Origin: Maribacter sp.
Lineage (GTDB): Bacteria > Bacteroidota > Bacteroidia > Flavobacteriales > Flavobacteriaceae
DNA length: 64,000 nucleotides
Direction of reading: 5' to 3'
NCBI GenBank assembly: GCA_024643345.1
Contig: JAHENB010000008.1
Span: 10,949 to 74,948, forward strand
The notes under the pieces are model-generated. The model worked only from the letters and a program-made list of their open reading frames with translations. It was not told the origin of the DNA and made no database searches. The translations under genes were made by a program, and so were the position numbers. Of the stretch, positions 12,034-64,000 are shown in pieces; positions within the stretch are counted from its first letter, which is position 1; every line of letters begins with the position of its first letter.

Positions 12034-12060
12034 AAGGGCCTTGTTTTTAAATGGATTTGT

Positions 12061-12083
12061 TGGGTTACCGTAACGGTAACCCA
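12061..12083. promoter_or_regulatory. Perfect palindrome/hairpin between the two ASST genes
   Basis: TGGGTTACCGT-A-ACGGTAACCCA: 11-bp arms, 1-nt centre; no long T-run follows. Confidence 0.6.
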
Positions 12084-12255
12084 TATTAAATCGTATTGTG
12101 CCAAACAGCAAGAAATTGGAATGCTTTTAATAAAAAAGTCCTGAGGGTAAGCGATATGAAACTTATTTTTAATAAATTCAGCATTGAAAAAATCGAACAA
12201 TTAGACCGATCATCAAAAAAAAGTCTATCCAAACACCTTATTCTGACCAACCAAA

Positions 12256-13929: not shown

Positions 13930-13964
13930 AGCAATACAAATAAACCAACTTAAAATCGTTTCAC

Positions 13965-18076: not shown

Positions 18077-18125
18077 CCTCCCTATTGAAAATCAAATACT
18101 CGTGGAAAAACCAACAGCCTTTCAA

Positions 18126-19754
18126 ATGAAGACACAATTTGTTCCGAAAGCGCTACTATCATTATTGGTGCTTGGCTTTGCGGGCTGTTCCGGAGCTGCC
18201 TCACCGTCGGCAGATGACCCAAGGCCCAATATCCTGATCTTGGTCGCGGATGATCTCGGTTATGCAGACTTAGGCTGTTATGGTGGCGATATTGCCACGC
18301 CCAATATTGATGCCTTGGCGGCCCGGGGGATCAGATTCAGTAGGTTTCATACCGCACCTATGTGTGCGCCCACAAGGGCAATGCTTTTGACCGGTAATGA
18401 CAACCATATTGCCGGGATGGGTAGACAAAACCTGTCGACTTCCGTATTTGGTTACGAAGGACACTTGACCAATAGGGTGGCCACCATACCGACCTTGCTC
18501 AAACAGGTCGGATATCATACCTATATGGCGGGAAAATGGCACCTTGGCAACCGACCGGAGGACAACCCGCATCACAAAGGTTTTGAAAACTCCTTTGTCT
18601 TGCTCGAAGGGGTTGGAAATCATTACAGCGAACACGAAATTTTTAAGAATGCCCCTGCCTCAATATATACGGAAGATGGGAAAAACACACAATGGCCTGA
18701 AGGCAGTTATTCGACCAACTTCTACACCGATAAACTCATCGCCTATATCGATCAAAATAAGAAAGACCACCAACCTTTTTTTGCCTATGCGGCCTATACC
18801 TCGCCCCATTGGCCGCTGCAGGTCGATAGAAAATATTGGGAGAAATATGAGGGGCGCTTTGACGATGGCTACGACAAACTAAAAGAACAAAGGCTGGAAA
18901 GCCTTAAGAAGGCAGGAATGATACCCTTAGGTGCCACGCTACCTCCAAACCACCCTTCCGTTAGACCATGGGATTCCCTTTCTATTGCCGAAAAGAAAAA
19001 AGAATCGAGAAAAATGGAACTCTATGCGGGGATGGTAGACAATCTGGACGAGAACATCGGTCGAATCATACAGCATTTAAAAGACATCGGCGCCTATGAA
19101 AACACTTTGATCGTCTTTATGTCCGACAATGGGGCGGCGGGAGAGGATTATTACAACGACCCCGATACCAGGGAATCGATTAGCGATTATTATACCGAAG
19201 ATTACAGCATGATGGGGGAAGCCAATTCAATGATTTCCTATGGTTCTGCCTGGGCAGAAGCCGGAACTTCCCCTTTCCGCTATTTCAAAGAGTTTACCAC
19301 CAACGGGGGCATTTTGGCCCCAATGATCATGGCTGGTCCCATGATCACAAGAATAAACGAAGTACATGATGATTTTGTGACCGTGATGGACATTGCCCCA
19401 ACCCTATATGAAGTGGGCAGGGCGAACTACCCCAAAAAACTTGAAGGCAGTACCCTTTATCCCCTAATGGGGACCTCTTTGCTCGCCTTTGCCTCTGGCG
19501 GAACATCGGAAATTCATCATCCTGATTACGTGTTCGGCCTAGAACACTCGGGCTATACCATGCTCAAGAAAGGGCAATGGAAAATAACCAATACCAGCTA
19601 TCCGTTCTCAGAAGCGAATTTCGAGCTCTACGATCTTTCCGATGACCTCGCAGAGCGGCACGATCTAAAAGAACGCGCGCCGGAAAAGTACTTGGAACTT
19701 TTAAAGGAATGGTCGGCTTACTCAGATAACATGCGGTTGCAACTTCCTAGATAG
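18126..19754 (+). CDS. Arylsulfatase (S1 family), lipoprotein
   Basis: ILVADDLGYADLGCYG, MCAPTRAMLLTG (CxPxR FGly motif), MAGKWHLG, FMSDNGA; ORF opens at 18036 inside the FMO gene but ATG 18126 precedes the signal peptide (GFAGC). Confidence 0.92.
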   Translation: MKTQFVPKALLSLLVLGFAGCSGAASPSADDPRPNILILVADDLGYADLGCYGGDIATPNIDALAARGIRFSRFHTAPMCAPTRAMLLTGNDNHIAGMGRQNLSTSVFGYEGHLTNRVATIPTLLKQVGYHTYMAGKWHLGNRPEDNPHHKGFENSFVLLEGVGNHYSEHEIFKNAPASIYTEDGKNTQWPEGSYSTNFYTDKLIAYIDQNKKDHQPFFAYAAYTSPHWPLQVDRKYWEKYEGRFDDGYDKLKEQRLESLKKAGMIPLGATLPPNHPSVRPWDSLSIAEKKKESRKMELYAGMVDNLDENIGRIIQHLKDIGAYENTLIVFMSDNGAAGEDYYNDPDTRESISDYYTEDYSMMGEANSMISYGSAWAEAGTSPFRYFKEFTTNGGILAPMIMAGPMITRINEVHDDFVTVMDIAPTLYEVGRANYPKKLEGSTLYPLMGTSLLAFASGGTSEIHHPDYVFGLEHSGYTMLKKGQWKITNTSYPFSEANFELYDLSDDLAERHDLKERAPEKYLELLKEWSAYSDNMRLQLPR

Positions 19755-47820: not shown

Positions 47821-50130
47821 TTATTTGTATTTGGATACCCGGGCGTCATCAATTACCCCTTTCCAGTTCAACCCAAAGGCAAAATCGTAGGAGCTACCCT
47901 CAGAATCGACATATGGTCTCATATCCCTGGGTACGTCTTCGAATTGTTCTTCCACCGTTTTCATATCGGCAGGCATTTGGAAGGGCAGTAAGGCCGAGGG
48001 CTCGGCAGCACCGGAAATAATGTCCATCAAAGCCTGGTCCTGAACTCCCATATGCACTACAATAGCCGATGCATTGACCTCGACTTCAGAAAAAACCATG
48101 GGTTTTGAAATATTCACGATCACGATGACCGGTTTGGTCCCCATTTCCTTTTTGGTGTCGTTCACCATTTTCATATCGGTTACATTCGAAGACGTTATGG
48201 TTTTGTCCTTGTATGAGCGGTTTGTAAAATCTTCCAACGGGCTTCCTCCCGCCAAACTGGTCGCCCGGGCATCCATTGCGGAATAGGGTGCATATTGCAG
48301 GCTGATGGGCACATAACCATTGCCGCCCTTGGCCAGATCTTCCCTATCGTAGCCTACGCCACCATCCGGACTTTGAATGCCCACCAAAGCGAAGTCGGCA
48401 TCTTTTGGATTATAGACCACCTCAAAATATTTGGCCAAAACCTCCATATTAAAAGGATATTCTGTTTTTTCCGGAGTTTCCATGCCGAACCAGTTCTTAC
48501 TGGCAGCAATATACCTTTGGGGTACATATACCTTTTGTCTCGTTTTTATTGGCAGGGTATTTTTTTGGTTCTTGAGCATCACAATAGAGCGAAGTTGCGC
48601 ATCATAACCCGCCTTCATGAACTCGGGATTGCCGACAATTTTTTCGGTTTCCGCCACTTCCAGGTAGGGGTTTTCGAAAAGGCCCACCCTAAAAATATTT
48701 TTCAGCAGTCGAACCGCCGAGGTTTCATAACGTTGGCGCATAAATAGCTCCCCATGGTCTGCAACGCCCAACCGATAGGCCTCGAGAACTGGTCCCATAT
48801 CGTTGTTGCCGCCAAATTGGTCAACTCCCGCCTCGATGACCTTATAATGGCGTTCGGCAACGGTCATGGTCTCCACGCCCCAACTTTTGCCTTCGAACAA
48901 ATCAACGGCGGTCACATCGCGTGTAACGCCCCAATCGGTGCATACTACGCCATCATAACCATATTGGCCCCTTAAAAGATCCGTGATAAGGTATTGGTTG
49001 AACGCATTACCTACATTGTCACCGTTTTTTTTGTCCCGACCAAAGGAAATCGTATAATAGGGCATCACTGCAGAAGCCATTTTCGTGCTACCTTCCAATT
49101 TAAAGGCACCTTCCGTAAAGGGTTTTAAATGATCCATTAAATTATTTCCAGGATAAACGGCATAGGCCCCATAGCCAAAATGCCCGTCCCTACCCCCTTC
49201 TTCGGGGCCTCCGCCCGGCCAATGCTTGACCATAGCGTTCACACTTTGATAGCCCCAACCCTGATCTTTCCCAGAGGATTGGAATCCATCGACATAAGCC
49301 CGTGCCATATCGGTAGCTAAATCGGGGTCTTCGCCCATGGTTCCACTAAATCGGCTCCAGCGCGGTTCGGTTCCAAGGTCGATCTGAGGCGACAATGCGG
49401 TTGAAATCCCCAGAGCCCTGTATTCTTCTGATGCAATTTCACCAAATTGGCGCATCAGCCCTGGATCAAAAGAAGCGGCTATTCCCAGGGTACCCGGCCA
49501 CATTGAAATATCACCACCCGCACCTGCATTGAATTCGGCGTAGGAATCACTCCCATGCCTTGGATCTGAGCTGGTATTGACCGGAATACCCAGACCAAGG
49601 CCCTCCACATAAGCCTGTGCATTATTGTTCCATTGGGCAGCAACACTGGGGTTTTCAACACTTGTGACCAAAACATGCCTTACATGGTCTTCATTAAGGA
49701 ACTGCTTTTGCCCATCCGAGAGATCACTGGCCATGGCGCCACTTTCTTCAAAAGGTTTACCGTTATAGGTAACTGGGCCAAATCTACTTCCTCTGGCTGG
49801 AATGGATTGATGTGAACTATATAACATCAGGCCGGCAATATCTTCCAAAGACATTTTGTGGGCCAGGTCAATGGCGCGATCATCGGCCGATAAACGCCAA
49901 TCTTCATAGGCATCCAGTTTTCCATCCTTGTTCAAATCCTTGAAGGCATATTGATCTACCGTAAGAAGTTTAACCCCGGAAGTTTTGTTATAACCAAGGG
50001 TCTTGCCACCTATATTGTTCACCAGGGTATGGTCTCCCTTATCTTCTTCGGTGAATTTTGGGCTGCAGCTTGTGGCCAAAACAGCAATGCCCATAACCCA
50101 TACCGAACTTGTTCTTTTAAAAATTTTCAT
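47821..50130 (-). CDS. Glycoside hydrolase family 3 lipoprotein
   Basis: 769 aa; lipobox ATSC; VCTDWGVTRD nucleophile region, KHWPGGG; N-terminal DLNKDGKLDAYEDW. Confidence 0.9.
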   Translation of the reverse strand: MKIFKRTSSVWVMGIAVLATSCSPKFTEEDKGDHTLVNNIGGKTLGYNKTSGVKLLTVDQYAFKDLNKDGKLDAYEDWRLSADDRAIDLAHKMSLEDIAGLMLYSSHQSIPARGSRFGPVTYNGKPFEESGAMASDLSDGQKQFLNEDHVRHVLVTSVENPSVAAQWNNNAQAYVEGLGLGIPVNTSSDPRHGSDSYAEFNAGAGGDISMWPGTLGIAASFDPGLMRQFGEIASEEYRALGISTALSPQIDLGTEPRWSRFSGTMGEDPDLATDMARAYVDGFQSSGKDQGWGYQSVNAMVKHWPGGGPEEGGRDGHFGYGAYAVYPGNNLMDHLKPFTEGAFKLEGSTKMASAVMPYYTISFGRDKKNGDNVGNAFNQYLITDLLRGQYGYDGVVCTDWGVTRDVTAVDLFEGKSWGVETMTVAERHYKVIEAGVDQFGGNNDMGPVLEAYRLGVADHGELFMRQRYETSAVRLLKNIFRVGLFENPYLEVAETEKIVGNPEFMKAGYDAQLRSIVMLKNQKNTLPIKTRQKVYVPQRYIAASKNWFGMETPEKTEYPFNMEVLAKYFEVVYNPKDADFALVGIQSPDGGVGYDREDLAKGGNGYVPISLQYAPYSAMDARATSLAGGSPLEDFTNRSYKDKTITSSNVTDMKMVNDTKKEMGTKPVIVIVNISKPMVFSEVEVNASAIVVHMGVQDQALMDIISGAAEPSALLPFQMPADMKTVEEQFEDVPRDMRPYVDSEGSSYDFAFGLNWKGVIDDARVSKYK

Positions 50131-50151
50131 TGTTGATCTATGATTTTAAAA

Positions 50152-51771
50152 TTATTGGTTGGCGATTAAAGCAAACAACTCCTTATCCAACTGCGGTTTC
50201 ACCTCACAGGTTATGTCAAAATGCATCGTTGCGGTATTGGTGCTATTATACATAGGCCATTCGGGAATTCCACTATGGTTGGGATTTCCGGTTTTTGCAA
50301 AATTGATCCATGACTGGCTTACCTTGGCCGCAAGTTCATGTGCTGCCCGACCACCTCCGGTCATCTGGTTGGCCAAGGCGATATTATCAAAGACAAAGGG
50401 CAGTTCCATGCAGTGCAGGGCCTTGTATTTTCCGTCAAAAACAGGCGATTGCCATGTAAAAAGATACATGAATACCGGGGCTCCGCCCTTCAAATCAGAT
50501 TTGGTATTGGCCTGCACCACTGCCCCGGGCCTGAAGGTGGTGTCGACATCCAAAAGATCTTTGGGTTGGGTATCATTGGGATATGCCTTCTTCACGGCTG
50601 CAATGTATGCCTCGGCTTTATCTTTGTACTGTTCCTTGATATGCGCCATAATCTGATCCTGGGTCGCCCCCATAAATCGCATATTGGCAAAGGGGGCAAA
50701 CTCATTCTTTACGGTTCCGATCATTAAAGGAACTTCTTTTGATAGGGCATAAGCTTCTTCGGAAGAAGTCTGAAAAGGTATATCTTGCCCATCCACACTG
50801 GGGCCCCAGTTCAATCCAAAGCCAAAGATGGGCTTCCCTTCGGCCTTCATCTTCGCTTCAATGCTTTTTAAGGCCTTGCTACTGGCCTCGGCCAATTGCT
50901 CAAAGGGAATGGTTTGTAAGCTATCCACTTGGGAGGCGGTGAGACCCAAAATATTTAAAGTTTCCGCGGCGATTCTTTGGGTATCTTCTTTGGTCGAAAC
51001 CCCGCCCCTAAAGGCCCCACTTTGATTGATGGCCTTATGGAACAAGCCATTTGCTTTGGGCATGGCCATAAGGGTATTTACTTTGGCCCCCCCACCCGAT
51101 TGGCCAAAGATGGTCACATTGTTCGGGTCGCCGCCGAAGTTGGCAATATTGGTTTTCACCCACTCCAATGCCGATACGATATCAAGCATACTGTTATTCG
51201 CCGAATGTTGATATTTCTCACCATAGGCCGACAGATCCAAAAAGCCCAGAACATTCAAACGATGGTTGATGGAAACCACCACAACATCACCTTTTTTACT
51301 CAGGTTTTCCCCATCCGTGGAAGGCAGTTCCTGACTCGACCCCGCAGTGTAGCCTCCACCATGGATCCAAAATAAGACGGGTCTCTTTTTGCCGTCGGTG
51401 ATACTTGGGGTCCAAACATTGATTCTTAAACAATCTTCGTTGGTGTAGCCCCAGTCGTGATCGAAAACAAATTCGGGTTCGTCTTGAACCATCGTGGTAG
51501 GGGTCAATAGTGGGGCAACCGGGCCATAGGAGGTTGAACTACGAATCCCATCCCAGGGTGAAGGTTTTTCCGGGGCTTCAAAACGTTTGGCCTGGGCATA
51601 GGGAATACCTTTATAGGTGAAGGTACCGTCATGGATATAACCCCGTACTTTTCCTGATTCGGTTTGGGTTACAGCCACGTTTTCCCCAGTTTTAATTTCA
51701 CCCTGAGCCATTGCACCGAATGTGGAGGACACCATGGCCAATGCCATCAACAAACTTTTAATTTTTTTCAT
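50152..51771 (-). CDS. Type-B carboxylesterase, secreted
   Basis: 539 aa; FWIHGGGYTAGS, IFGQSGGGAKV (GxSxG). Confidence 0.9.
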   Translation of the reverse strand: MKKIKSLLMALAMVSSTFGAMAQGEIKTGENVAVTQTESGKVRGYIHDGTFTYKGIPYAQAKRFEAPEKPSPWDGIRSSTSYGPVAPLLTPTTMVQDEPEFVFDHDWGYTNEDCLRINVWTPSITDGKKRPVLFWIHGGGYTAGSSQELPSTDGENLSKKGDVVVVSINHRLNVLGFLDLSAYGEKYQHSANNSMLDIVSALEWVKTNIANFGGDPNNVTIFGQSGGGAKVNTLMAMPKANGLFHKAINQSGAFRGGVSTKEDTQRIAAETLNILGLTASQVDSLQTIPFEQLAEASSKALKSIEAKMKAEGKPIFGFGLNWGPSVDGQDIPFQTSSEEAYALSKEVPLMIGTVKNEFAPFANMRFMGATQDQIMAHIKEQYKDKAEAYIAAVKKAYPNDTQPKDLLDVDTTFRPGAVVQANTKSDLKGGAPVFMYLFTWQSPVFDGKYKALHCMELPFVFDNIALANQMTGGGRAAHELAAKVSQSWINFAKTGNPNHSGIPEWPMYNSTNTATMHFDITCEVKPQLDKELFALIANQ

Positions 51772-51845
51772 CTTCTTTAAATTGTGTTATTATTATGGTT
51801 GTTATGCTATTGATTTATCTTCAGTTTAAGTGTTCGAAACCGTTC

Positions 51846-52643
51846 TTAGGTTTGTGCCGGGTTCAATATCCCGGCTTTGTTTTTGACAAAACTGTAGAGA
51901 TAGGGCGCTTTATGGGCCTTACCCATAAAAAGTTTGTCATGTCTTATAAGGATATCCATCCCAAGGATTTTTCGCTGAAAGGAAGAACGGCGCAATTTTT
52001 CTCCCAAAACGGCCTCGTACACCTTTTGTAACTGCTTCATGGTGAACAAGGGCGGTAAAAGGTTCATGCCTACCAGTTTTGTCTCAAGATTATCCCTCAA
52101 GTTCTGCAAGGCTTTTTCGACGATCTGTTGATGGTCCATCATCAAAGGGGGCAAGGTATCAACAGCATACCAATTGATGGAATCGGAAAGCTGATCGGGA
52201 ACCGGTGTCACCTCATCGTAATTGATCAAGGCATAATAAGCGACTGAAATGAAACGATCTAATAACCAATTTCCCGCCTCTATTTCATAACCATTGGCTT
52301 CCAAAATGGTCTGCATCGCCTCGGGTACCATTCTGGAGACATCGCCAAAGGTGTGGAACTGTTCAAGGTAGATGTTGTCCAATCCGGTTCTCTCGTACAA
52401 CCCCCTTTTAACGGCATCATCCACACTTTCATTTCGCTTCACGAAACCGCCGGGAAGAGCAAATAAACCGGTATTATGATATTCCAGTATCAATATTCTA
52501 AGCTGCTCTCCATTGAATCCAAAGATGACCGAATCATACGCCAGATTAGGGATATACGTTTCAGTTGATGGTAGTTCTCTCCTATTTTTGTTTCTCAAAA
52601 AGATAATTTTAATCAAATAAATGATAAAATTTAAAGAAAACAA
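51846..52643 (-). CDS. Nudix-domain protein with C-terminal wHTH-like region (putative NrtR/AraR-type regulator)
   Basis: 265 aa; Nudix fold ILILEYHNTGLFALPGGFVKRNESVDDAVKRGLYERTGL with degenerate Nudix box; C-terminal FTMKQLQKVYEAVLGEKLRRSSFQRKIL. Confidence 0.78.
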   Translation of the reverse strand: MFSLNFIIYLIKIIFLRNKNRRELPSTETYIPNLAYDSVIFGFNGEQLRILILEYHNTGLFALPGGFVKRNESVDDAVKRGLYERTGLDNIYLEQFHTFGDVSRMVPEAMQTILEANGYEIEAGNWLLDRFISVAYYALINYDEVTPVPDQLSDSINWYAVDTLPPLMMDHQQIVEKALQNLRDNLETKLVGMNLLPPLFTMKQLQKVYEAVLGEKLRRSSFQRKILGMDILIRHDKLFMGKAHKAPYLYSFVKNKAGILNPAQT

Positions 52644-52692
52644 AGTATTATTGTAACAAATTGAGACAATAAAGAACCTTTAACTATTTCCA

Positions 52693-54324
52693 ATGAAAAA
52701 TTTACTCCTTTTCACAGTTGCGATACTGATGGCAAGCCATACGGCAGTGGCCCAGAACAAAAACGCCTTTCCGGTACAAGTAAAACTTGAAAACGGGATC
52801 ATCGAGGGCAACTACGATACCCATACCGGTATCCAGACCTACTTTGGCGTGCCCTTTGCCAAACCGCCCGTTGGTGAATTACGATGGAAAGCACCCCAGC
52901 CTTTAGATACGTGGAGCGGTGTAAAAGAAACCAAATCCTTTGGTCCCAGACCGATGCAGACCATGGTTTTTGGGGATATGAAATCGCGTTCCGATGGGGT
53001 CAGCGAAGACTGCCTCTATTTGAACATTTGGACCCCCGCGAACAGAAATTTAAAAAATCTGCCTGTATTGGTCTATTTCTTCGGCGGTGGCAACGTGGCC
53101 GGAGATGCTTCGGAGTACCGATATGATGGTGAAAGCATGGCCAAAAAGGGAATGGTCGTGGTCACCACGAACTATCGTCTGAACATTTTTGGATTTTTCG
53201 CCCATCCTGAACTCAGTAAGGAAGCCTCCTATGGGGCATCCGGAAATTATGGACTCCTTGATCAAAATATGGCCTTACGATGGGTGCAAAAAAATATTGC
53301 GGCCTTTGGAGGCGATGCAACCAAAGTTACAATAGCCGGGGAATCTGCAGGTTCTATAGGGGTTAGTCAGCAAATGGCCTCTCCCCTTTCCAAAAATCTG
53401 ATCGCCGGGGCCATTGGGGAGAGCGGTGCGGGAATTAACCCAACCATGGCGCCCGTACCCTTAAAAGAGGCCGAAAAAATAGGATTGGAATTTTCGCAAA
53501 AAGCCGGTTATCCTAGCCTTTCCCAATTGAGGGCGTTGAGCACCCGTGAAATCTATGAAATCTACAACGAATCAAAGCGCTTTGGTTTTCCTGCGGTGAT
53601 CGACGGATATTTTTTGACCAAGACATTGCCGGAAACCTTCAGCCTAAAAGAGCAGGCCCAAGTGCCCCTCTTATTGGGGTGGAATTCAGCCGAAATCCCG
53701 GGCATGGCCTTTATGCAAGGTCAGCCCTATACCGAGGAAAACTATATCGCCAAGGTTAAGGAAACCTATCCGGAGAAATATGCCGAGGTGTTGAAGTTAT
53801 ATCCATATGGGTCTGAAAAAGAAATAGAACGCTCGGCCACAGATCTGGCTTCTGATCGATTTATAGCCTATAGCACTTGGAAATGGTTCGACCTGCACCG
53901 CCAAAACAGTGGCCAACCCGTGTATCGTTATCTTTACAGTAAACTTAGGCCCCCCTTGGTGAATCAAAATCTCGCTTCGGGACTTGCGGGAGGTACGGTC
54001 GAGAAAAACCCTGATGCGCCCCAGGCGCCTGGGCCCATAGGCGCACCCCATGCCTGTGAGATCGAATATTGTATGGGCAATCTTCATTTGGTCGATGACT
54101 ATGCTTGGACGGCCGATGATTACAAAACATCCCTTGACATGCAGAACTACTTTGCGAATTTCATCAAAACCGGCAATCCGAACCAAGCCGATCTTCCCGA
54201 ATGGACGGCGGCCAAAGCCAATGATCCAATGCCCCCGGTGATGGTCATCGATACCCAAAGCAAACTGATCAAGGCAGAAAACGATGCCAGATATCTATTT
54301 TTGGACAAGGTCTACCTTAAATAA
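52693..54324 (+). CDS. Type-B carboxylesterase, secreted
   Basis: 543 aa; signal peptide; TIAGESAGSIGV (GxSxG), QTYFGVPFAKPPVGELRWKAPQP. Confidence 0.9.
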   Translation: MKNLLLFTVAILMASHTAVAQNKNAFPVQVKLENGIIEGNYDTHTGIQTYFGVPFAKPPVGELRWKAPQPLDTWSGVKETKSFGPRPMQTMVFGDMKSRSDGVSEDCLYLNIWTPANRNLKNLPVLVYFFGGGNVAGDASEYRYDGESMAKKGMVVVTTNYRLNIFGFFAHPELSKEASYGASGNYGLLDQNMALRWVQKNIAAFGGDATKVTIAGESAGSIGVSQQMASPLSKNLIAGAIGESGAGINPTMAPVPLKEAEKIGLEFSQKAGYPSLSQLRALSTREIYEIYNESKRFGFPAVIDGYFLTKTLPETFSLKEQAQVPLLLGWNSAEIPGMAFMQGQPYTEENYIAKVKETYPEKYAEVLKLYPYGSEKEIERSATDLASDRFIAYSTWKWFDLHRQNSGQPVYRYLYSKLRPPLVNQNLASGLAGGTVEKNPDAPQAPGPIGAPHACEIEYCMGNLHLVDDYAWTADDYKTSLDMQNYFANFIKTGNPNQADLPEWTAAKANDPMPPVMVIDTQSKLIKAENDARYLFLDKVYLK

Positions 54325-55626
54325 ATGATCCTGCTAACCGGTATAACGATCACGATTGTTTTATTGGCTCTTATTCTTTCAAAGAAGGTAAGTGCTTTGT
54401 CGGCTCTCGTTTTGGTTCCCGTTTGCGGTGCGCTGCTGGCCGGTTTTGGAACCGAGACCGCTAAATTCGCCATAACGGGCATTCAAAACATTGCTCCCAT
54501 AGTGGCGATGTTCGTTTTTGCCATCCTATTTTTTGGGGTCTTGACCGATGCCGGTATGTTCGACCCAATCATCAACGCCATTCTTAAAGTGGTAGGGCTA
54601 AATCCTATTAGAATTACGATCGGTGCCGCAGTACTGGCGATGATCGTGCATTTGGATGGTTCGGGAGCCGTTACTTTTTTGATCGCCGTTCCGGCCATGT
54701 TGCCTTTATTTGACAAATTGGGGATGGACCGCCGGGTATTGGCATGCGTGGTCGCATTGGGTGCGGGCACCATGAATTTGGTACCTTGGGGCGGCCCCAC
54801 CTTAAGGGCCGCCACCGCACTCCAAGTGGGCATTACAGATCTTTATACCCCCGTGATGGTCCCGCAACTTTTCGGATTGCTTTTTGTGTTGCTGGTGGCA
54901 TGGTATTTGGGCAAGAAAGAAGCCAAAAGATTAGACCTTATCGATTCAGAACCAAAACATTCCAATTATTCAAGAGTACTGACCGAAGCTGAGGAAAAAC
55001 TTCGGAGGCCGAAATTATTTTGGTTCAATATTTTGTTGACCCTATTGGTAATCGCCACCTTAATATCGGGGATCATAGCCCCGGCCATCCTATTCATGTT
55101 GGGTGCCATTATAGCGCTCATGGTAAATTATCCAAGGCTTTCTGAACAAAAAAACAGAATTGATGCGCATGCCAGAGCTTCGTTGCTCATGGCGAGTATT
55201 TTATTGGCCGCAGGTGTGTTCACGGGAATTATGACCGAATCGGGCATGATTTCGGAAATGGCAAGTGCCGCCGCCACTGTAATTCCTACCCAGGCAGCCC
55301 AACACATTCCCGTCTTGATGGCGGTCAGCAGTATGCCTTTAAGCCTTGTTTTTGATCCTGATTCTTTTTATTTTGGGTTTTTACCGGTAATTGCAGAAGT
55401 GGGGAATCAAATGGGTGTTGCTCCCATAAGCGTGGGTCAAGCTGCCATACTGGGCCAAATGACCACAGGTTTTCCCCTTAGCCCGTTAACCGCTACCACC
55501 TTTCTATTGATCGGATTGGCCAAGGTGGATCTGGCGGAACACCAACGATTCACCTTTAAGTATGCCTTTGCCACGACCCTTGTGATGACCATGGTGGCCA
55601 TCTTGATCGGGACCATTCCGTTTTGA
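54325..55626 (+). CDS. CitMHS-family transporter
   Basis: 433 aa polytopic; [50 protein letters not shown]. Confidence 0.85.
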
Positions 55627-55648
55627 TTGCCGGGGTAAAAGAACATTT

Positions 55649-57001
55649 ATGTCAAAGCAAATAAAATCATCAATAAAAATTGGCTCTGGTGCGGGCTATT
55701 CGGGGGATCGATTGGATCCTGCCCTGGAATTGATGAAAAGAGGGGATTTGGATTATATCTGTTTTGAGGGTCTTGCTGAAAGGACCATAGCCCTGGCGCA
55801 GAAATCAAAAATGGCGGACCCATCGAAAGGCTATAATGAACTTCTCACATATAGAATGGAACAGCTGCTGCCTTTGGCCCACAAGAATAAAATAAAGGTG
55901 ATAACCAATATGGGTGCTGCAAATCCATCAGCGGCAAAAATGGCCGTAGCCGGCCAAGCTGAAAAACTGCGATTAAAAGGGTTGAAAATTGCGGCAGTTT
56001 TGGGCGATGACATCTATGGGAACATAAAAACCTATATGGATCTACCCATACTGGAAACGGGTCGACCCCTGGCTTCCCTCAAAGGCAAAATACTATCTGC
56101 CAATGCCTATTTGGGCTATGGTGGCATAGTCGAGGCCCTGGTCAATGAAGCGGATATCATAATTACAGGGAGGGTCGCGGACCCATCGATCTTCCTGGCC
56201 CCAATGGTATTCGAATTTGGATGGAATATGAACCAAATCGAAAAGTTGGGCATAGGAACCCTTGTTGGCCATCTATTGGAATGCGCCGGACAGGTTACGG
56301 GCGGTTATTTTGCCGACCCTGGGAAGAAGGAAGTACCCGAACTTTGGAATTTGGGCTTCCCATATGTACAAATTGATCGCAGTGGACAGGGTTATGTTTC
56401 CAAATTGGATGGTACAGGGGGTCTGGTGACGCGGGCCACCTGCACGGAGCAGCTGCTTTATGAAATCCACGACCCACGACATTATATAACGCCTGATTGC
56501 GTAGCGGATTTCTCCAATGTGGAATTCAACGAAATTGAAAAGGACAAAGTATCCTTTACAGGAGCAACGGCAAAACAACCTACAGACACCTATAAGGTCA
56601 GCGTGGGGTATCGAAATGGCTATCTGGGGGAAGGCCAGATGAGCTATGGGGGGACGAATGGTCTGCAAAGGGCATTGCTGGCCAAAGAAGTGGTGCAAAA
56701 AAGACTGGCTCGGCTACCTTTTCCCATTGAGGAACTTCGCTTTGATCTGATAGGTATCAACGCCCTTTTGGACCAGGGCCTCCCATCTGGTTCCCCGATC
56801 GAAGTACGATTGCGCGTGGCGGGCAAAACCGGAACCGCACAACAGGCACAGCGCCTTGCCAATGAGGTGGAAACCCTTTATACCAATGGTCCGGCCGGAG
56901 GGGGAGGTGCCTCAAAAAATGTTGAGGAAATCATTTCCATTGCCTCTATCTTGGTGCCAAAAAAAGACATAGACATCTCCATTGAATATCTAAACATTTG
57001 A
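55649..57001 (+). CDS. Acyclic terpene utilization AtuA-family protein
   Basis: 450 aa; IGSGAGYSGDRLDPALELMKRGDLDYICFEGLAERT, ITNMGAANPSAAK, ITGRVADPSIFLAPM. Confidence 0.9.
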   Translation: MSKQIKSSIKIGSGAGYSGDRLDPALELMKRGDLDYICFEGLAERTIALAQKSKMADPSKGYNELLTYRMEQLLPLAHKNKIKVITNMGAANPSAAKMAVAGQAEKLRLKGLKIAAVLGDDIYGNIKTYMDLPILETGRPLASLKGKILSANAYLGYGGIVEALVNEADIIITGRVADPSIFLAPMVFEFGWNMNQIEKLGIGTLVGHLLECAGQVTGGYFADPGKKEVPELWNLGFPYVQIDRSGQGYVSKLDGTGGLVTRATCTEQLLYEIHDPRHYITPDCVADFSNVEFNEIEKDKVSFTGATAKQPTDTYKVSVGYRNGYLGEGQMSYGGTNGLQRALLAKEVVQKRLARLPFPIEELRFDLIGINALLDQGLPSGSPIEVRLRVAGKTGTAQQAQRLANEVETLYTNGPAGGGGASKNVEEIISIASILVPKKDIDISIEYLNI

Positions 57002-57003
57002 CC

Positions 57004-57303
57004 ATGAAACTATGGGACATTGCACATGCGAGAACAGGCGATAAGGGAAATATCAGCAATATTTCCCTTATTGTACATGACTTAAGGGACTTTGCGCTTA
57101 TTGAGGAAAAAGTGACCGCGGAAGCGGTAAAAAATTGGTACCAAGACCTTGTGAAAGGTCAGGTCATTCGATACGAACTCCCGCAACTTGGGGCGCTTAA
57201 TTTCGTAATGTACGATGCTTTGGGCGGTGGGGTAACCAGCTCAACCGCTCTTGATAAACATGGAAAAACCCTGGGTGCCTATTTATTGGAAATGCCCCTG
57301 TAA
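57004..57303 (+). CDS. AtuA-like small (ferredoxin-fold) domain protein
   Basis: ~99 aa; MKLWDIAHARTGDKGNISNISLIVHD, usually a C-terminal AtuA domain. Confidence 0.82.
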   Translation: MKLWDIAHARTGDKGNISNISLIVHDLRDFALIEEKVTAEAVKNWYQDLVKGQVIRYELPQLGALNFVMYDALGGGVTSSTALDKHGKTLGAYLLEMPL

Positions 57304-57316
57304 TAATATTATCGCT

Positions 57317-58348
57317 ATGAAAAAAGTATGTGTATTTCTCTTGATCATTTGTTATGCCTCAACCCTTTCGGGTCAAAAAGGTTTAAAGGGTACCGTAGTG
57401 ACCGATGCTGTCTATTCCAAAAATCTTGAAAACAATTTTGGTGAAAACCCCACACGTTCGGTTTCGGTGTACTTACCCCCAAATTATGATGTTTCCGATA
57501 AAAAATATCCGGTCATCTACTTTCTCCATGGCTTTTTAACCGATGATAAATTGATGGGACAAATGAAAGACCTGCTCGATTATGCAATTGAAGCCCATAA
57601 AATTGACCCATTCATCATGGTGATACCTGATGAGAAAACGACTTATGACGGGAGTTTTTATTCCAACTCGGGCGTATTTGGAAATTGGGAAGATTTCACT
57701 GTTTTTGATCTGGTTTCTTACATGGATTCCCATTATCGCACCTTCGCCAAAAAAGAGAGTCGCGGTATTACCGGCCACAGCATGGGCGGCTATGGGGCAT
57801 TGAAACTCGCCATGAAACATCCGGATGTCTTTGGGGCCGTTTACGCCATAAGCCCGGGGGCATTGGCGATCGTTCGGGAATATGGCCCGAATAGCAATAC
57901 CTTCAAAGAGTTTTCAAAGGTTAAATCGATGGAAGATCTTGAAAAGACCTATTTTGGAAAAGTCATGGTTGCCTTTGGAAGGGCTTGGTCCCCCAATCCT
58001 AACAAGCCTCCCTTCTATTGTGATGTTCCATTTGAATATGTCAACGATGAATTGGCCGTAAACCAGGAGGTGTTGAAAAAATGGCATAGCAATATGCCGA
58101 CCTATATGATCGCAGACTACATTGATAATCTGAATAAGCTCAAGGCCATAAAGTTGGATTGGGGCCGAAATGCGGGCGAACGATTTACCATTCAATGCAA
58201 AATGTTTAGCCAACAGCTTGAAAATGCCGGCGTCACCCATTTTTCAGAGGAATATATAGGTACCCATGTCAGTGATATTTATACCAAAGAAGGACGTATC
58301 CCCCAACAGGTGCTGCCGTTCTTTGATTTATATCTGGACTTCGATTGA
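57317..58348 (+). CDS. Esterase family (alpha/beta hydrolase, EstD-like), secreted
   Basis: YPVIYFLHGFLTDD, GITGHSMGGYGALKLAMKHP; ATG 57317 with signal peptide. Confidence 0.88.
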   Translation: MKKVCVFLLIICYASTLSGQKGLKGTVVTDAVYSKNLENNFGENPTRSVSVYLPPNYDVSDKKYPVIYFLHGFLTDDKLMGQMKDLLDYAIEAHKIDPFIMVIPDEKTTYDGSFYSNSGVFGNWEDFTVFDLVSYMDSHYRTFAKKESRGITGHSMGGYGALKLAMKHPDVFGAVYAISPGALAIVREYGPNSNTFKEFSKVKSMEDLEKTYFGKVMVAFGRAWSPNPNKPPFYCDVPFEYVNDELAVNQEVLKKWHSNMPTYMIADYIDNLNKLKAIKLDWGRNAGERFTIQCKMFSQQLENAGVTHFSEEYIGTHVSDIYTKEGRIPQQVLPFFDLYLDFD

Positions 58349-58388
58349 TTTGAACGCAGGATTTACACGAATGGCATCAAGGATGCGT

Positions 58389-61300
58389 TCATTCGGTTAT
58401 TTTAAAATTGTAATGTCCTGAGACCAATTCCAGAACAACCTCATCCCCTTCTTTTTGATGAATTGTAATGTCCTTTGTTTTTTTTAATTTTTTGCCGTTC
58501 AGGGTAACCTTCGCAATTGAATTTGTCTTTAATCGTAAGGTTGCCGAGGTATTGGCCGGAACGGTGGTAGAATAGGTCCAGCCGGTATCTTCCCATTGCC
58601 ATGCACTTTGGATACGGCCATGCATGCTGTCGTAATAGCCTTTCGCCCAGGTCATTTTTTTATCCGGATCTGGGGTTGGCCGCAAAATAAAATGCTTGAA
58701 ACCTGGATGGTCAGGGTCACGTTGAATGCCCAGGGAGTAATTGTACATCCAGGCGGCCACGGCGCCAAAGGAATAATGGTTGAAGGAGTTCATACTATTG
58801 TTGCCGCCGAAACCATTCTCCAAGGTATATGAATTTAAGCGTTCCCAAATGGTCGTGGCCCCGTTCTCTACGGAATACAACCATGAAGGATAGGAAGTTT
58901 GCCGCAACAAACGATAGGCGATCGCATCCTGCCCGTTTTCGGACAAGGCTTGGTTCAGGGAAGCCGTACCGATAAACCCGGTCATCAGGGAATATTCAGG
59001 GCGCAATGCACCCAGCTCATCCTCATTCGATCGCTCTATGCTCCCCACTAGGTTCTGTACCAGCTTCGCTTTGTTTGTATCATCAACCACATTGAGATCC
59101 AAAGGAATCGCATAAGATGCCTGTGTATCCACAAAATCGCCTGCCTTTTTCCTTTTTTCTTCGGGTAGGGGTGGTCCAAAACGAAGGCTTTGATTCCCCA
59201 AATGAATCGTTTTTCCCGAAGCGCCATCTATATAGGTCTTATTGAAAAATGCCTTTCGATCTTGGTATTGTTTTTCAAAGTTCGTGGCCTCTCCGGTTTT
59301 ACCCAACAGACGGGCAGTCTTTGCCAAGATTTCAAGATCGTACAGATGGTAGGCCGCCCAAAGCCCAGTGTCCTCGTTTTTATAGCCTTCGGGACTCAGC
59401 CAATCGCCCAATGGTCCTTCATTTAAAACTCCTGTTTCAGGGTCGATTTTAGAATTCAAGAATTCCACATAGCGTTTCATGGCATCGTAATGCGCGCGCA
59501 ACAATTCCAAATCGCCGTATTGTTGATATACTTCCCAGGCAACTATGATACCGGCACTCCCCCAAAGCGTTCCTCCAAAACCACCGCCAACGGGAGCAAC
59601 ATCGGTAAAACGACCGTCTTCCCTTTGGATATCCCGCATGGCGAGCATCTGCCGATTTAGAAAAGGCCCCACATCGGCTAGATAGGTCGAGGCCTTTGAA
59701 AAGACATTGATGTCCCCGCTCCAGCCCATGCGTTCGTTTCGTGCAGGCGTATCGGTGGGGATCGATAAGAAATTGCCCCGGAGCGACCAGGTAATATTTT
59801 CCCAAAGCTTGTTCACCATTGCGTTAGAGGTTTCATAGCTTGAGGACAGTTCCTTAATGGAGCTTACCACCAAACCCTTCACATTTTCTAAGGGCAAGGC
59901 TTTGTCTATGCCCGTAATTTCCAAAAAGCGATAGCCATGAAAGGTAAATCGGGGCCGTATGGTTTCCACGCCCCCTTTTCGGATATAGAGGTCTTGGGCT
60001 AGGGCCGCCCTTATGTTTTCGAGCATCACCATCCCCGTGTTTTCTCCGTATTCCGATAAATCGGGATACTTTACTTCGGCGTACCGGAGCGTTATGGTAT
60101 CCCCTGCACTACCATTGGGGATTTGCAGCTGCGGAAACCCCACCATGTTCTGTCCCATGTCATAGACAAATACCCCTGGGCGCACTTGTTCGACACTCTT
60201 GGCGACAAGGGACTTTACTATTGTAGCGTTTTCCCCTATTTGCCCCATGAGCTTCAAATCACCATAATTGAATTTGTCGTTTTGAAAGGTCGTTCCCTCC
60301 AAAGGCACCTCTTTGGCCGATTTCCATTGACCATCATCATACTCTGCAGTTGCCCAGCCCGCTATATCTTTTTCCTTGGCAGCGTCATAAACTTCGCCCT
60401 GGAAAAAGCTGCCGTAACGTAGGGGACCGTCGGTAAACAATTCCCAATCGGTATCATTGGTGGTCATCACTTGCTCCGAGCCATCCGCATAGGTAATGAT
60501 CAATTGTGCCAGAAGGGATTGCCGATCACCAAAATAATTCCAGTTTTCACCACTATAGGTAATGTTGCCGCTCCACCAGCCTTCACTGAGCCAGGCCCCC
60601 AAAGCATTGTCGGCACCCGATAAAACCTTTTCGGTCACATCATAGGTCTGGTACATTTGGGTCTTGTTATATTGCGTTAGCCCGGGATTGAAATAATCAT
60701 TTCCGATGCGCTCTCCATTGATATACACTTCATAGATCCCCCTTGCGGTGGCATATAGCCTTGCTTTTGCCACTGGTTTGTTCTCGACCCTGAATTCGGT
60801 GCGCAACATGGGCGCGGCATTACGGCTCGGATCGGCCAGCACCAAATTGCCCTTGTCACCTCCGATGATTTCGTAGGCCCCGTCTTGTACCAAAAAGTTG
60901 TTCTTTTCCACTACCGCCTTCTTAAATAATCCCTGGTAATTGCCCTCGGCCCTTAGGTCTTCCGAATAGATAACGTTGGAAGGCGCCCTAAAATTCCGGA
61001 TGCGCAGATCCGAAAAACGGGCCTTTTGGCCCGCATCCGAATAAAAGCCGATATCGGCCAACATGGGAAAACTGATATAGTCGTTGCCCTTCCCGACGGG
61101 ATTCAGGTTGAATCCGATTTTGCCGCGAGGTGGGGGCATGGTATCATCGTTACCGGAAATTTTGTTCTCTTCTGAGGAACCATCCAGGTATACCTGGAAC
61201 AACCCAAAATTACATTCGGCAAAAAAAGTATGCGGTTCATACTTATTGTCCCTGTTGATAATATTTAATGGAATATCGTAGGTTCTAAAGGGCACGTCGG

Positions 61301-62033
61301 CATTATCTCCCGGGGCATAACCGATGCGATACACCTTAAATTTAGCCAAATTGGTTTCGGTGCCGTCCACTCCGGAAATATCCAATTCAAAGCGGATATA
61401 GCTTTGATCCTTTTGGGTTTCCACCCCTTGAATGTTCTTGTCACGATCTAGGAGCCTTTGGTCATTGCCGCCAAAAACAAAGGATGCTTTGGTGCTTTTC
61501 GATTTTTGATCGATCTGTAATGTGTATTCCATTTTAAAGACCGACAGGTAATGTGAATACAACACCATGTCTTCATCCCCGCCACCGATCCATTGGGCAT
61601 TGTGCCATTCTGCGGCATTGGGATCGGAATCGAGCATTCCGGTTTCGAACCAAGAAGATCCCGTACTCGATTTCCCCTCTTCGTCCCAAATGGTAACCAC
61701 CCAAACGTAGCGAGTAGTCGGCAAGAGTTTTTGACCCTTATACGAAATGCCCATTGCATCGGTTGAAAGCACCTTTCCCGAATCCCATACCAAATCTTTG
61801 GATTCATTGGTGACCTTGATTTGATAGGCTGTTTGGAACTGGCCCCTTTTCATGGGGCCGGTCACCATTTGCCAACTGAAACGGGGCGTGGCAACATCAA
61901 TGCCCAAAGGCGTTTCCCGGTATTCGACTTGCAATTGTTTTGGTGGGATTTGTGCCGTTAAGGTTTCCGGATGAAAAACCATGAGGAATAATAAGGATGC
62001 CACAATAAATTTTGCAAGAACGGTCGGTTTCAT
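58389..62033 (-). CDS. Alpha-L-rhamnosidase (GH78), secreted
   Basis: Rhamnosid_N ARLYATARGIYEVYINGERIGNDYFNPGLTQYNKT; catalytic DTPARNERMGWSGD; start trimmed from 62066. Confidence 0.93.
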   Translation of the reverse strand: MKPTVLAKFIVASLLFLMVFHPETLTAQIPPKQLQVEYRETPLGIDVATPRFSWQMVTGPMKRGQFQTAYQIKVTNESKDLVWDSGKVLSTDAMGISYKGQKLLPTTRYVWVVTIWDEEGKSSTGSSWFETGMLDSDPNAAEWHNAQWIGGGDEDMVLYSHYLSVFKMEYTLQIDQKSKSTKASFVFGGNDQRLLDRDKNIQGVETQKDQSYIRFELDISGVDGTETNLAKFKVYRIGYAPGDNADVPFRTYDIPLNIINRDNKYEPHTFFAECNFGLFQVYLDGSSEENKISGNDDTMPPPRGKIGFNLNPVGKGNDYISFPMLADIGFYSDAGQKARFSDLRIRNFRAPSNVIYSEDLRAEGNYQGLFKKAVVEKNNFLVQDGAYEIIGGDKGNLVLADPSRNAAPMLRTEFRVENKPVAKARLYATARGIYEVYINGERIGNDYFNPGLTQYNKTQMYQTYDVTEKVLSGADNALGAWLSEGWWSGNITYSGENWNYFGDRQSLLAQLIITYADGSEQVMTTNDTDWELFTDGPLRYGSFFQGEVYDAAKEKDIAGWATAEYDDGQWKSAKEVPLEGTTFQNDKFNYGDLKLMGQIGENATIVKSLVAKSVEQVRPGVFVYDMGQNMVGFPQLQIPNGSAGDTITLRYAEVKYPDLSEYGENTGMVMLENIRAALAQDLYIRKGGVETIRPRFTFHGYRFLEITGIDKALPLENVKGLVVSSIKELSSSYETSNAMVNKLWENITWSLRGNFLSIPTDTPARNERMGWSGDINVFSKASTYLADVGPFLNRQMLAMRDIQREDGRFTDVAPVGGGFGGTLWGSAGIIVAWEVYQQYGDLELLRAHYDAMKRYVEFLNSKIDPETGVLNEGPLGDWLSPEGYKNEDTGLWAAYHLYDLEILAKTARLLGKTGEATNFEKQYQDRKAFFNKTYIDGASGKTIHLGNQSLRFGPPLPEEKRKKAGDFVDTQASYAIPLDLNVVDDTNKAKLVQNLVGSIERSNEDELGALRPEYSLMTGFIGTASLNQALSENGQDAIAYRLLRQTSYPSWLYSVENGATTIWERLNSYTLENGFGGNNSMNSFNHYSFGAVAAWMYNYSLGIQRDPDHPGFKHFILRPTPDPDKKMTWAKGYYDSMHGRIQSAWQWEDTGWTYSTTVPANTSATLRLKTNSIAKVTLNGKKLKKTKDITIHQKEGDEVVLELVSGHYNFKITE

Positions 62034-62101
62034 TTTAAATCGATTTAAAAATAGGTGGGATTGCATTGTTTACAAGATTACCCAATATACGTCATTATAC
62101 T

Positions 62102-62290
62102 GTTCTGTACTGTTAGGGAATGTTGAAAGAAGTGGGGACAGATGCATCGAAAACTTTCGACTGATCTCACAATGGCATCCAAATGGAATGGATCATTTAT
62201 GCAATAAAACCGTTTTGAAATGTTGGCAATTGGTGGTGAACCGATATCTTTTTGATCATGGCCCCAACCATTTACCGAACAGTACAGAAC
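62102..62290. repeat. 13-nt inverted repeat in the divergent GH78 intergenic region
   Basis: GTTCTGTACTGTT (62102-62114) and AACAGTACAGAAC (62278-62290), exact reverse complements. Confidence 0.6.
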
Positions 62291-62475
62291 GCCCATTCCG
62301 AAAACGATGGTTACATTTGGATTCAATGGTGAAGTTAAAAAACAATTTGAAATCAGGACCTATTGCAGCATGGATTGTTCGCCTAAAATCAAAAAGCCGT
62401 CTTTCGGGCAAACCATCAAACAGAGATCAACGCATTGCCATAAGCGATATATACAGTTATACCAAATATTCTAAA

Positions 62476-64000
62476 ATGCAAAAAACCATTAAACCCTTAA
62501 TGATTTCGATGGTCTTGCTCTGTTCCTTTACAAGCTTTGCCCAAGAAATAGCCCCAGAATTTTCCCAAAAAATGTGGCAGGCACAATGGGTGCAGGTGCC
62601 CGATACAGATGGGAAAGATTATGGGGTATATCTGTTCCGAAAGCAAATTGAAATCGAAAAGATACCGAGCGCATTGCCGGTTTATATCTCGGCCGATAAT
62701 AAGTATGAACTGTATGTCAACGAAGCCTTGGTTTCTCGAGGGCCGAATAAAGGGGACCTATCACATTGGAATTTCGAGATATTGGATCTTGCCGCTTTTC
62801 TCAAAAAGGGAAAAAATACGGTCGCGGCCAAGATCTGGAACGAGGGCAGTCATCGACAAGAGGCCCAACTTTCATTCAATACGGGTTTTATCCTTCAAGG
62901 GGCCAGCCCCGAAACAGCCGTGCTGAATACGGATAGCAGTTGGAAATGTGTTCAGGATACAAGCTACAGTCCTATTTTGATAAGCGATTATATGCCCAGA
63001 CCTGGTCTGTTGTTGTTGCCCGGCTATTACGTGGCGGGACCCGGTGAAAAAGTGGACATGTCCAAAAAATACGTGGGTTGGAAAACCGATTCCTTTGACG
63101 ACGGCAAATGGAAGAACGCACAATTCATATCGCCCGGAATTCCACGGAATACCGTGGGCCTCGATGCCGGAAATTCCTGGCGCCTGGTGCCCTCCACCTT
63201 GCCACCTATGGAAACTGTGGCCCAGCGATTCAAAAAATTGAGAAAGGCCGATGGGGTTACGATTTCTCCAGACTTTCCCGAGAAATCGGCAGCCATTGAA
63301 ATTCCCGCCAATATCTCCGCGTCCCTATTATTGGACCAGACGTATTTGACCAACGCCTATCCTACGCTTACCTTTAGTGGAGGCAAAAAAAGCATTATAT
63401 CCCTTACGTATGCCGAAGCCCTTTATGATGCCCAAAGTTCAAAAGGTGACAGGAACAAAATTGATGGCAAAACGATGATCGGAAGAACGGACAGTTTACT
63501 GTCAAGTGGGGCACAAAAGCAAGAGTTTACCCCAATTTCGTACCGCACTTACAGGTACTTGGAGGTAACCATAAAGACCGAAGACGACCCTCTTGTCATT
63601 GACGATATTTCCTCTGTGGCGGTCGGTTATCCCTTTAAAATGAACGCCACGCTCAAAACTTCCATTCCGGAAATGGATCAAATGATGGACATCGGCTGGC
63701 GCACCGCCAAGCTCTGTGCCATGGATACTTATATGGATTGCCCCTATTGGGAGCAATTGCAATATATTGGGGATACCCGAATCCAGGCCATGGTATCGCT
63801 TTACAACAGTGGGGACGATCAATTGGTTAAACATGCACTCGACCTGATCGATTTCTCGAGGCAACCGGAGGGCATTACCCTAAGCCGTTATCCGACCCAA
63901 AATGCGCAAATCATCACGCCCTTTTCCCTATGGTATATCGGGATGTTGTACGACTATATGATGTACGGCAACGATAGGGACTTCATCAAGAACAAACTCT
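62476..64000 (+). CDS. Second GH78-like alpha-L-rhamnosidase (3' end outside window)
   Basis: Open frame from ATG 62476 (MQKTIKPLMISMVLLCSFTSFAQ signal) to window end; IEIPANISASLLLDQTY, TYRYLEVTI, MDCPYWEQLQYIGDTRIQ; absent from ORF track because no stop. Confidence 0.85.
   Translation, partial: MQKTIKPLMISMVLLCSFTSFAQEIAPEFSQKMWQAQWVQVPDTDGKDYGVYLFRKQIEIEKIPSALPVYISADNKYELYVNEALVSRGPNKGDLSHWNFEILDLAAFLKKGKNTVAAKIWNEGSHRQEAQLSFNTGFILQGASPETAVLNTDSSWKCVQDTSYSPILISDYMPRPGLLLLPGYYVAGPGEKVDMSKKYVGWKTDSFDDGKWKNAQFISPGIPRNTVGLDAGNSWRLVPSTLPPMETVAQRFKKLRKADGVTISPDFPEKSAAIEIPANISASLLLDQTYLTNAYPTLTFSGGKKSIISLTYAEALYDAQSSKGDRNKIDGKTMIGRTDSLLSSGAQKQEFTPISYRTYRYLEVTIKTEDDPLVIDDISSVAVGYPFKMNATLKTSIPEMDQMMDIGWRTAKLCAMDTYMDCPYWEQLQYIGDTRIQAMVSLYNSGDDQLVKHALDLIDFSRQPEGITLSRYPTQNAQIITPFSLWYIGMLYDYMMYGNDRDFIKNKL

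Follow-up and report, generated by a model that had tools for sequence, protein, structure and literature searches.

We propose that the gene set at the end of the window (the whole 64,000-nucleotide stretch of DNA that was analysed) serves the catabolism of an acylated glycoside by ester cleavage, acid import and a lyase split, a reading to which we assign a probability of roughly 0.55. The exported carboxylesterases CE1 and CE2, the PF00756 esterase (Est) and the GH3 enzyme, probably joined by the neighbouring GH78 rhamnosidases, would take the compound apart, either in the periplasm or extracellularly. A short hydroxy-dicarboxylic or tricarboxylic acid released in this way, citrate-like in being a tertiary hydroxy acid, would be imported by CitMHS and split by AtuA and AtuA_ferredoxin (AtuA_fd) into acetate and an oxoacid usable by central metabolism. 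A NUDIX–winged-helix regulator acting on a single palindrome between two divergent operons may control the set.

Pfam searches verified the gene content listed in an earlier note on this DNA (Table 1): a GH3 enzyme, a pair of COesterases, CitMHS, AtuA with AtuA_ferredoxin encoded by a gene of its own, a PF00756 esterase and two GH78 enzymes. The NUDIX–winged-helix regulator had been overlooked. The genes form two divergent operons, NUDIX–CE1–GH3 and CE2–CitMHS–AtuA–AtuA_fd–Est, the latter tightly packed with gaps of 0, 22, −4 and about 16 bp. As judged by eye, the N-termini of CE1, CE2, Est and both GH78 proteins resemble signal peptides, in agreement with the secreted esterases postulated earlier, and that of GH3 resembles a lipobox. 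AtuA had also been described as split; it and AtuA_fd are indeed separate genes, but this is the usual form in the clade rather than a peculiarity, AtuA_fd adjoining AtuA in 80 of 80 scan loci.

Table 1. Features of the locus (positions in the window).
Feature	Position	Strand	Basis and remarks
GH3 glycoside hydrolase	47821..50130	-	PF00933/PF01915; lipoprotein-like (lipobox-like) N-terminus
CE1 carboxylesterase (COesterase), exported (by eye)	50152..51771	-	PF00135, E 1.6e-97
NUDIX + winged-helix regulator (NrtR/AraR type)	51846..52643	-	PF21906 (NrtR_WHD), PF00293; exact start uncertain
Operator-like palindrome TATTGTCTCAATTTGTTACAATA (minus-strand reading), 23 bp	52649..52671		Only 0-mismatch copy in the genome
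CE2 carboxylesterase (COesterase), exported (by eye)	52693..54324	+	PF00135; first gene of + operon
CitMHS carboxylate:H+ symporter (by family)	54325..55626	+	Pfam; TIGR00784, 437 bits (curated cut-off 260)
AtuA, proposed large subunit of a CmlA-like hydroxy-acid lyase	55649..57001	+	PF07287, E 1.6e-149
AtuA_ferredoxin small subunit	56998..57303	+	PF23544, E 7e-35; likely start ATG 57004; 4-bp overlap with AtuA
PF00756 esterase (Est), exported (by eye)	57320..58348	+	Pfam; last gene of + operon
GH78 alpha-L-rhamnosidase a	58389..62066	-	PF17389/PF05592
GH78-like alpha-L-rhamnosidase b	62476..64000	+	Pfam; cut by window end, complete (799 aa) in L002:1425-3824

The locus resembles a canonical SusCD PUL in combining glycoside hydrolases and esterases with a dedicated regulator, but the contig of the window lacks SusCD; a version containing it occurs in Mangrovimonas (L050), where the same module lies inside a SusCD run. 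As had been stated earlier, no SusC/SusD pair is present in the window, and a genome-wide profile search gave no SusD (PF07980) match on its contig (C17, 107.8 kb), the SusD matches being confined to other contigs (C27, C12, C9, C58, C33, C34 and C59). Extension of the contig past 64 kb, which the earlier note had advised, added further genes, among them a GH106 enzyme and a rhamnose-catabolism operon with a separate GntR regulator beside them, and again no SusCD.

The assignment of AtuA draws on fold and profile comparisons. A structure model built from 62 sequences (pLDDT 95), which superseded a model from six sequences (pLDDT 79), gave a single significant match in the PDB, to the citramalate lyase–ADP–pyruvate entry 9evf_A (E 6.1e-27, TM 0.74), and the AtuA sequence profile also matched this chain (E 1.2e-7). 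The link to CmlA surfaced only in these profile and fold searches; the single AtuA sequence found no match in the PDB. Alignment with E. coli CmlA by hhalign (E 7.5e-10, 331 columns) showed the motifs GRxxDP, LEC and LYExxDP in common, at an identity of 15–23%. Invariant residues of AtuA are G174, R175, D178, E211, C212, K252, E267, Y271, E272, P276 and K316. CmlA, too, belongs to PF07287; its gene lies behind that of methylaspartate ammonia-lyase, and its partner is a 105-aa DUF4387 protein deposited as CmlB. From the sequence profiles and the model we infer that AtuA and AtuA_fd may form a two-subunit hydroxy-acid lyase of the CmlAB superfamily. To our knowledge, no member of the AtuA clade that accompanies CitMHS has a known activity. 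Both CmlAB (PDB 9erq/9evf; mal-linked cluster of E. coli) and the present pair have a PF07287 large subunit with the CmlA fold and, directly downstream of its gene, a gene for a small partner of about 100 aa. They differ in that the small subunit is DUF4387 in CmlAB and PF23544 here, and in that the context of CmlAB is glutamate fermentation rather than ester uptake. AtuA_fd found no match in the PDB, and a common origin with CmlB was rejected, there being no detectable similarity between the two (hhalign E 0.26).

At a distance of no more than 1.5 kb, AtuA is accompanied by CitMHS in 63 of the 80 scan loci, and likewise in 6/6 same-class and 4/5 same-family loci, compared with 0/34 for the 35–40%-identical AtuA clade of the same phylum; genes in the relatives' loci were called by a homology-ranked gene caller. 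The co-occurrence is clear enough to sustain the earlier scheme in which exported hydrolases, acid import and AtuA belong together. The pairing spans Bacteroidota, Firmicutes, Proteobacteria and one archaeon, and the CitMHS–AtuA–AtuA_fd set is also plasmid-borne in Azospirillum, Mycetohabitans, Spirosoma and the archaeon Haladaptatus. Trees and AU tests assign the CitMHS of the window to the Eudoraea/G500 type and its AtuA to the G604/Mongoliibacter/Maribacter type. Since both the operator described below and this co-occurrence are conserved, the gene arrangement reflects more than chance. The CitMHS–AtuA–AtuA_fd import-and-split core recurs, so far unaccounted for, across bacteria and also in one archaeon, and none of the papers searched names CitMHS and AtuA together. 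The name of the large DUF1446/AtuA family is misleading; tying the operon to the citramalate lyase fold provides a function that can be tested for an enzyme encoded by two genes in several bacterial phyla and one archaeon, as examined here. For Bacteroidota without SusCD at the locus, it also offers a concrete catabolic role for acyl groups carried by glycosides of plant or algal type.

The family name had earlier led to the suggestion of a terpenoid aglycone, with AtuA taking part in acyclic (citronellate/geraniate-type) terpenoid catabolism. We regard this as very improbable and have rejected it: the name is its basis, and no Atu-pathway partners accompany the gene. Genes for geranyl-CoA carboxylase (atuC/F), a hydratase and a CoA ligase were absent from the scanned locus and the downstream contig genes, and the window AtuA belongs to a separate clade which travels with CitMHS, a symporter for small carboxylates, and not with atuBCDEFGH-type genes. 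AtuA of the acyclic terpene utilization pathway does share the Pfam family as regards its large part. The Thauera protein, however, is a 615-aa polypeptide of a geranyl-CoA carboxylase pathway (PMC4847356), whereas the window has two genes together with CitMHS and esterases.

Our leading candidate for the acid is 3-hydroxy-3-methylglutarate (HMG), which would be split into acetate and acetoacetate; citramalate comes next. HMG is a known acyl group of rhamnosides, as in the HMG-acylated rhamnoglucosides brutieridin and melitidin (PMC7908980). A hint to the lyase product comes from genes for 3-oxoacid/acetate CoA-transferase, in several cases accompanied by a thiolase, which follow AtuA–AtuA_fd in about 10 of 85 loci (AtoD model PRK09920 above cut-off in L057 and L104) and which also occur in Azospirillum. 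This association was observed in Clostridia, Bacilli and Proteobacteria and in no Bacteroidota; in the window genome, a pair of CoA-transferase genes lies away from the locus. These thiolase neighbours point to an acetoacetyl product and so away from citrate, which CitMHS might otherwise import after its release from citrate esters (or a tricarballylate-like acid), with AtuA as an alternative citrate lyase. The symporter model scores far above its cut-off and cleavage to acetate and oxaloacetate is the same chemistry, but in aerobes imported citrate enters the TCA cycle without need of a lyase, and we think citrate use unlikely.

The same CoA-transferase (AtoDA) and thiolase neighbours would also suit the scavenging of 3-hydroxybutyrate-type compounds, in which the esterases would be oligo- or polyhydroxyalkanoate hydrolases, CitMHS would import 3-hydroxy acids and AtuA would start their conversion to acetoacetate for the CoA-transferase and thiolase. 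On two Microvirga plasmids a PF10605 3-hydroxybutyrate-oligomer hydrolase adjoins AtuA–AtuA_fd, which points to a hydroxy acid other than HMG, and Est weakly resembles a PHA depolymerase, below cut-off. Against this, AtuA has the fold of a lyase that releases acetate and gave no significant dehydrogenase match in the fold search, no 3-hydroxybutyrate dehydrogenase was identified beside the module in Bacteroidota, and GH78, GH3 and the sugar genes are left unexplained; it seems to us an improbable account. Returning to HMG, we tentatively suggest, with considerable doubt, that AtuA/AtuA_fd and CitMHS may constitute a pathway that is widespread but has so far gone undescribed. In it, a two-subunit lyase would act without CoA on free HMG, or on a closely similar tertiary hydroxy acid, and yield acetate and acetoacetate; in Bacteroidota, esterases and rhamnosidases breaking down HMG-acylated glycosides would feed the pathway.

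The regulator combines a NUDIX domain (PF00293) with the NrtR winged helix (PF21906). Its NUDIX box, read by eye, is degenerate (RGLYERTG compared with REUxEExG), and the protein is probably a ligand sensor. The perfect 23-bp palindrome, its predicted operator, has one copy genome-wide, between the two divergent operons, and homologous loci keep the palindrome core and about 15 bp of flank; regulator homologues are 65–71% identical in L038, L088, L092, L137 and L141. BtAraR and NrtR likewise join a NUDIX-like ligand domain to a winged helix, adjoin a catabolic gene set and have a palindromic operator-like site. Their operator, TATTGTCTCA-N7-ACAATA (PMC4666351), differs from that of the window, as do their target genes. 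The NUDIX2 palindrome (L002:6309-6335) has no further copy in L002 or the window.

The rhamnoside part of the earlier proposal stands less firmly. In this genome the NUDIX operator was searched for and is absent at both GH78 promoters and downstream, because of which the GH78s are linked to the module here by proximity only. The co-occurrence of AtuA, CitMHS and GH78, put forward as a check, is strong for the first two, but GH78 is missing from most AtuA loci. Two independent neighbours may instead adjoin, which we consider rather less likely than not: a NUDIX-controlled ester/acid module (CE1, GH3, CE2, CitMHS, AtuA, AtuA_fd, Est), and next to it a rhamnoside locus of no relation to the module (two GH78s, GH106 and the rhamnose operon). 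The separate GntR regulator at the GH106/rha genes speaks for this. Relatives argue for a connection: a GH78a homologue directly follows the NUDIX regulator in G500 (L141), GH78 and GH3 lie beside AtuA in Catalimonadaceae JC749 (L048), and a decayed GH78 fragment occupies the same position behind the regulator in strain CP2B (L092). The rhamnose operon downstream accords with the rhamnoside part of the earlier proposal. At issue here is how far the locus extends, and two neighbours would be compatible with the lyase reading.

Homologues of the remaining genes are well conserved, with identities of 76% for CE1 (G604, Eudoraea and CP2B loci), 69–80% for CE2 (six loci) and 70–82% for Est (G604, G500, Eudoraea, Maribacter, G558 and Mangrovimonas loci). 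GH3 homologues are 62% identical in L137 and 66% in L048, and those of GH78a 62% in L048 and 59–60% in L141.

The genes listed in the earlier note (GH3, the COesterases, CitMHS, AtuA, the esterase and the GH78s) were all found by Pfam where it had placed them. AtuA is encoded by two neighbouring genes, AtuA and its small partner AtuA_fd, which overlap by 4 bp. The window contains two divergent operons, with the NUDIX regulator, the exported COesterase CE1 and GH3 on the minus strand, and the exported COesterase CE2, CitMHS, AtuA, AtuA_fd and the PF00756 esterase (Est) on the plus strand, the latter with successive intergenic gaps of 0, 22, −4 and ~16 bp. The α-L-rhamnosidases GH78a (minus) and GH78b (plus) come after these operons.

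Features of the locus and, in order, of the contig downstream of the window end (loci L002 and L004)
Feature	Position	Strand	Remark
NUDIX + NrtR winged-helix regulator	51846–52643	−	Pfam; missed in the earlier note
Perfect palindrome	52649–52671		Single in the window genome
AtuA (PF07287)	55649–57001	+	Pfam
AtuA_fd (PF23544)	56998–57303	+	Pfam
Remainder of GH78b	Downstream, 1
Sde182-type protein	Downstream, 2
Second NUDIX-wHTH regulator	Downstream, 3
ThuA-GSDH-cytochrome c protein	Downstream, 4
GH2	Downstream, 5
GntR-type regulator	Downstream, 6
GH106 rhamnosidase	Downstream, 7
Rhamnulose-1-phosphate aldolase/dehydrogenase fusion	Downstream, 8		TIGR02632 over cut-off
L-Rhamnose-isomerase-like protein	Downstream, 9		Best models under their cut-offs
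FGGY kinase	Downstream, 10

A search of the PDB with the single AtuA sequence gave no solved relative. The model built from a 62-sequence alignment (pLDDT 95) had a sole significant match in a fold search of the PDB, 9evf_A, a citramalate lyase structure that also contains ADP and pyruvate (E = 6.1e-27, TM 0.74), and an earlier, weaker model returned the same single match. The AtuA sequence profile also matches this entry, which is deposited as 'AtuA family protein / citramalate lyase subunit A (cmlA)', and GRxxDP, LEC and LYExxDP are preserved in the AtuA–CmlA alignment. The E. coli cmlA gene lies within the methylaspartate ammonia-lyase cluster, for which no citramalate lyase was known in 2015 (PMC4682846); the next gene, of the DUF4387 family, is deposited as CmlB. 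The AtuA of the terpene pathway has tentatively been given an acetate-releasing lyase step on 3-hydroxy-3-alkylglutaryl-CoA (PMC4847356), an independent assignment that resembles that of CmlA in the release of acetate from a tertiary hydroxy acid. In our view, the most valuable point is that the CitMHS-AtuA-AtuA_fd core is probably a citramalate-lyase-like enzyme together with its own importer.

The co-occurrence of AtuA with CitMHS, a check proposed in the earlier note, was borne out. A GTDB genome scan gave 80 AtuA loci from Bacteroidota, Firmicutes, Proteobacteria, Spirochaetota and Synergistota; AtuA_fd adjoins AtuA in all 80 and CitMHS lies within 1.5 kb in 63, with a further scan locus (L092) having it one gene distant. 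In the other Bacteroidota AtuA clade (35–40% identity) CitMHS was in reach in 0 of 34 loci, most of which had 1.5-kb flanks only. Same-class relatives of the window AtuA at ≥ ~50% identity occur in few genomes, and the CitMHS-AtuA-AtuA_fd order, with esterases close by, was present in 6/6 same-class loci examined. Any AtuA was found in only seven of 400 genomes of the window's own family and it is absent from three genomes of the genus; the locus is thus an accessory trait. Annotated plasmids of Azospirillum, Mycetohabitans, Spirosoma and the archaeon Haladaptatus keep the same order; on others TRAP, TTT or ABC transporters stand in for CitMHS. In the Microvirga plasmid loci (L130:13307–18550 and L136), AtuA-AtuA_fd precede a TTT transporter binding protein and a 3HB-oligomer hydrolase, with a tannase in L130; this is another esterase-transporter-AtuA set. 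Three gut-type loci (L068, L074 and L118) carry a ceramidase-like gene and a 3-hydroxyacyl-CoA dehydrogenase in place of CitMHS; their AtuA substrate likely differs.

Most of CE1, NUDIX, CE2, CitMHS, AtuA, AtuA_fd and Est recur in G604, G500, Eudoraea (one locus, L088 = L140), CP2B and G076, mostly at 65–82% identity to the window, AtuA, AtuA_fd and CitMHS excepted. The palindrome TATTGTCTCANNTNNNNACAATA stands beside the NUDIX gene in each of these five loci, and in G604 another copy lies upstream of CE2. The catabolic locus is real, and both it and its operator-like palindrome are conserved. The G500 homologue of GH78a is the gene directly behind NUDIX, decayed GH78a fragments occupy that place in CP2B (L092:4196–4580, minus), and in Catalimonadaceae JC749 GH3 (66%) and GH78a (62%) are next to AtuA. 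Relatives thus show a real link to GH78, although no NUDIX operator was found at the promoters of the window GH78a and GH78b. In Mangrovimonas (L050/L051) a TonB-dependent barrel and SusD lie upstream on the same strand and form one co-directional run with esterases, GH3, CitMHS, AtuA, AtuA_fd and two COesterases, so that the module sits inside a PUL-like locus.

The two trees place the window differently: its AtuA falls in a group with G604, Mongoliibacter and Maribacter (support 99/96), its CitMHS in one with G500, Eudoraea and CP2B (100/99). Forcing the alternative grouping, with groups named post hoc from the trees, was rejected for both AtuA (p-AU 1.6e-57) and CitMHS (p-AU 6e-4). AtuA_fd tracks AtuA, with 82% identity to G604 and ~60% to Eudoraea and G500. 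It thus appears that AtuA and AtuA_fd were swapped together within an otherwise common locus, which fits their being two subunits of one enzyme, interchangeable between both versions.

The earlier note had found no SusCD pair, and this held on the whole contig (107,777 bp, with the window at 10949–74948): SusD had no match here and matched seven other contigs of the genome. The downstream GH106, aldolase/dehydrogenase fusion, isomerase-like protein and FGGY kinase indicate that rhamnose catabolism is encoded within ~40 kb. A perfect palindrome with 12-bp arms, ATTTTAATGTCT-N7-AGACATTAAAAT, precedes the second NUDIX-wHTH gene (L002:6307–6337), with no further copy in L002 or the window.

As a family, CitMHS symporters take up citrate-like acids. 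About ten of 85 loci, none of them Bacteroidota, have 3-oxoacid/acetate CoA-transferase genes after AtuA-AtuA_fd, often plus thiolase, neighbours that would fit acetoacetate, as from cleavage of 3-hydroxy-3-methylglutarate (HMG), over pyruvate or oxaloacetate. Plants are known to make rhamnoglucosides acylated with HMG (PMC7908980); their use would require uptake of the acid as well as an esterase, GH78, GH3 and an enzyme that cleaves HMG, and the locus content matches. From gene content, HMG may be the acid. The 3HB-oligomer hydrolase of the Microvirga loci hints at 3-hydroxybutyrate esters as another substrate type. The scheme of the earlier note, from esterases and glycosidases through acid import to AtuA, is supported, but its terpenoid reading is not.

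Elsewhere in the window, inspection by eye of 5982–14645 showed sulfate-activation-type genes (at ~6–9 kb), then two tandem paralogues with an EIRQWKPEDTR motif and a sulfotransferase-like gene. At 16544–19754 a sulfatase adjoins a flavin monooxygenase-like gene.
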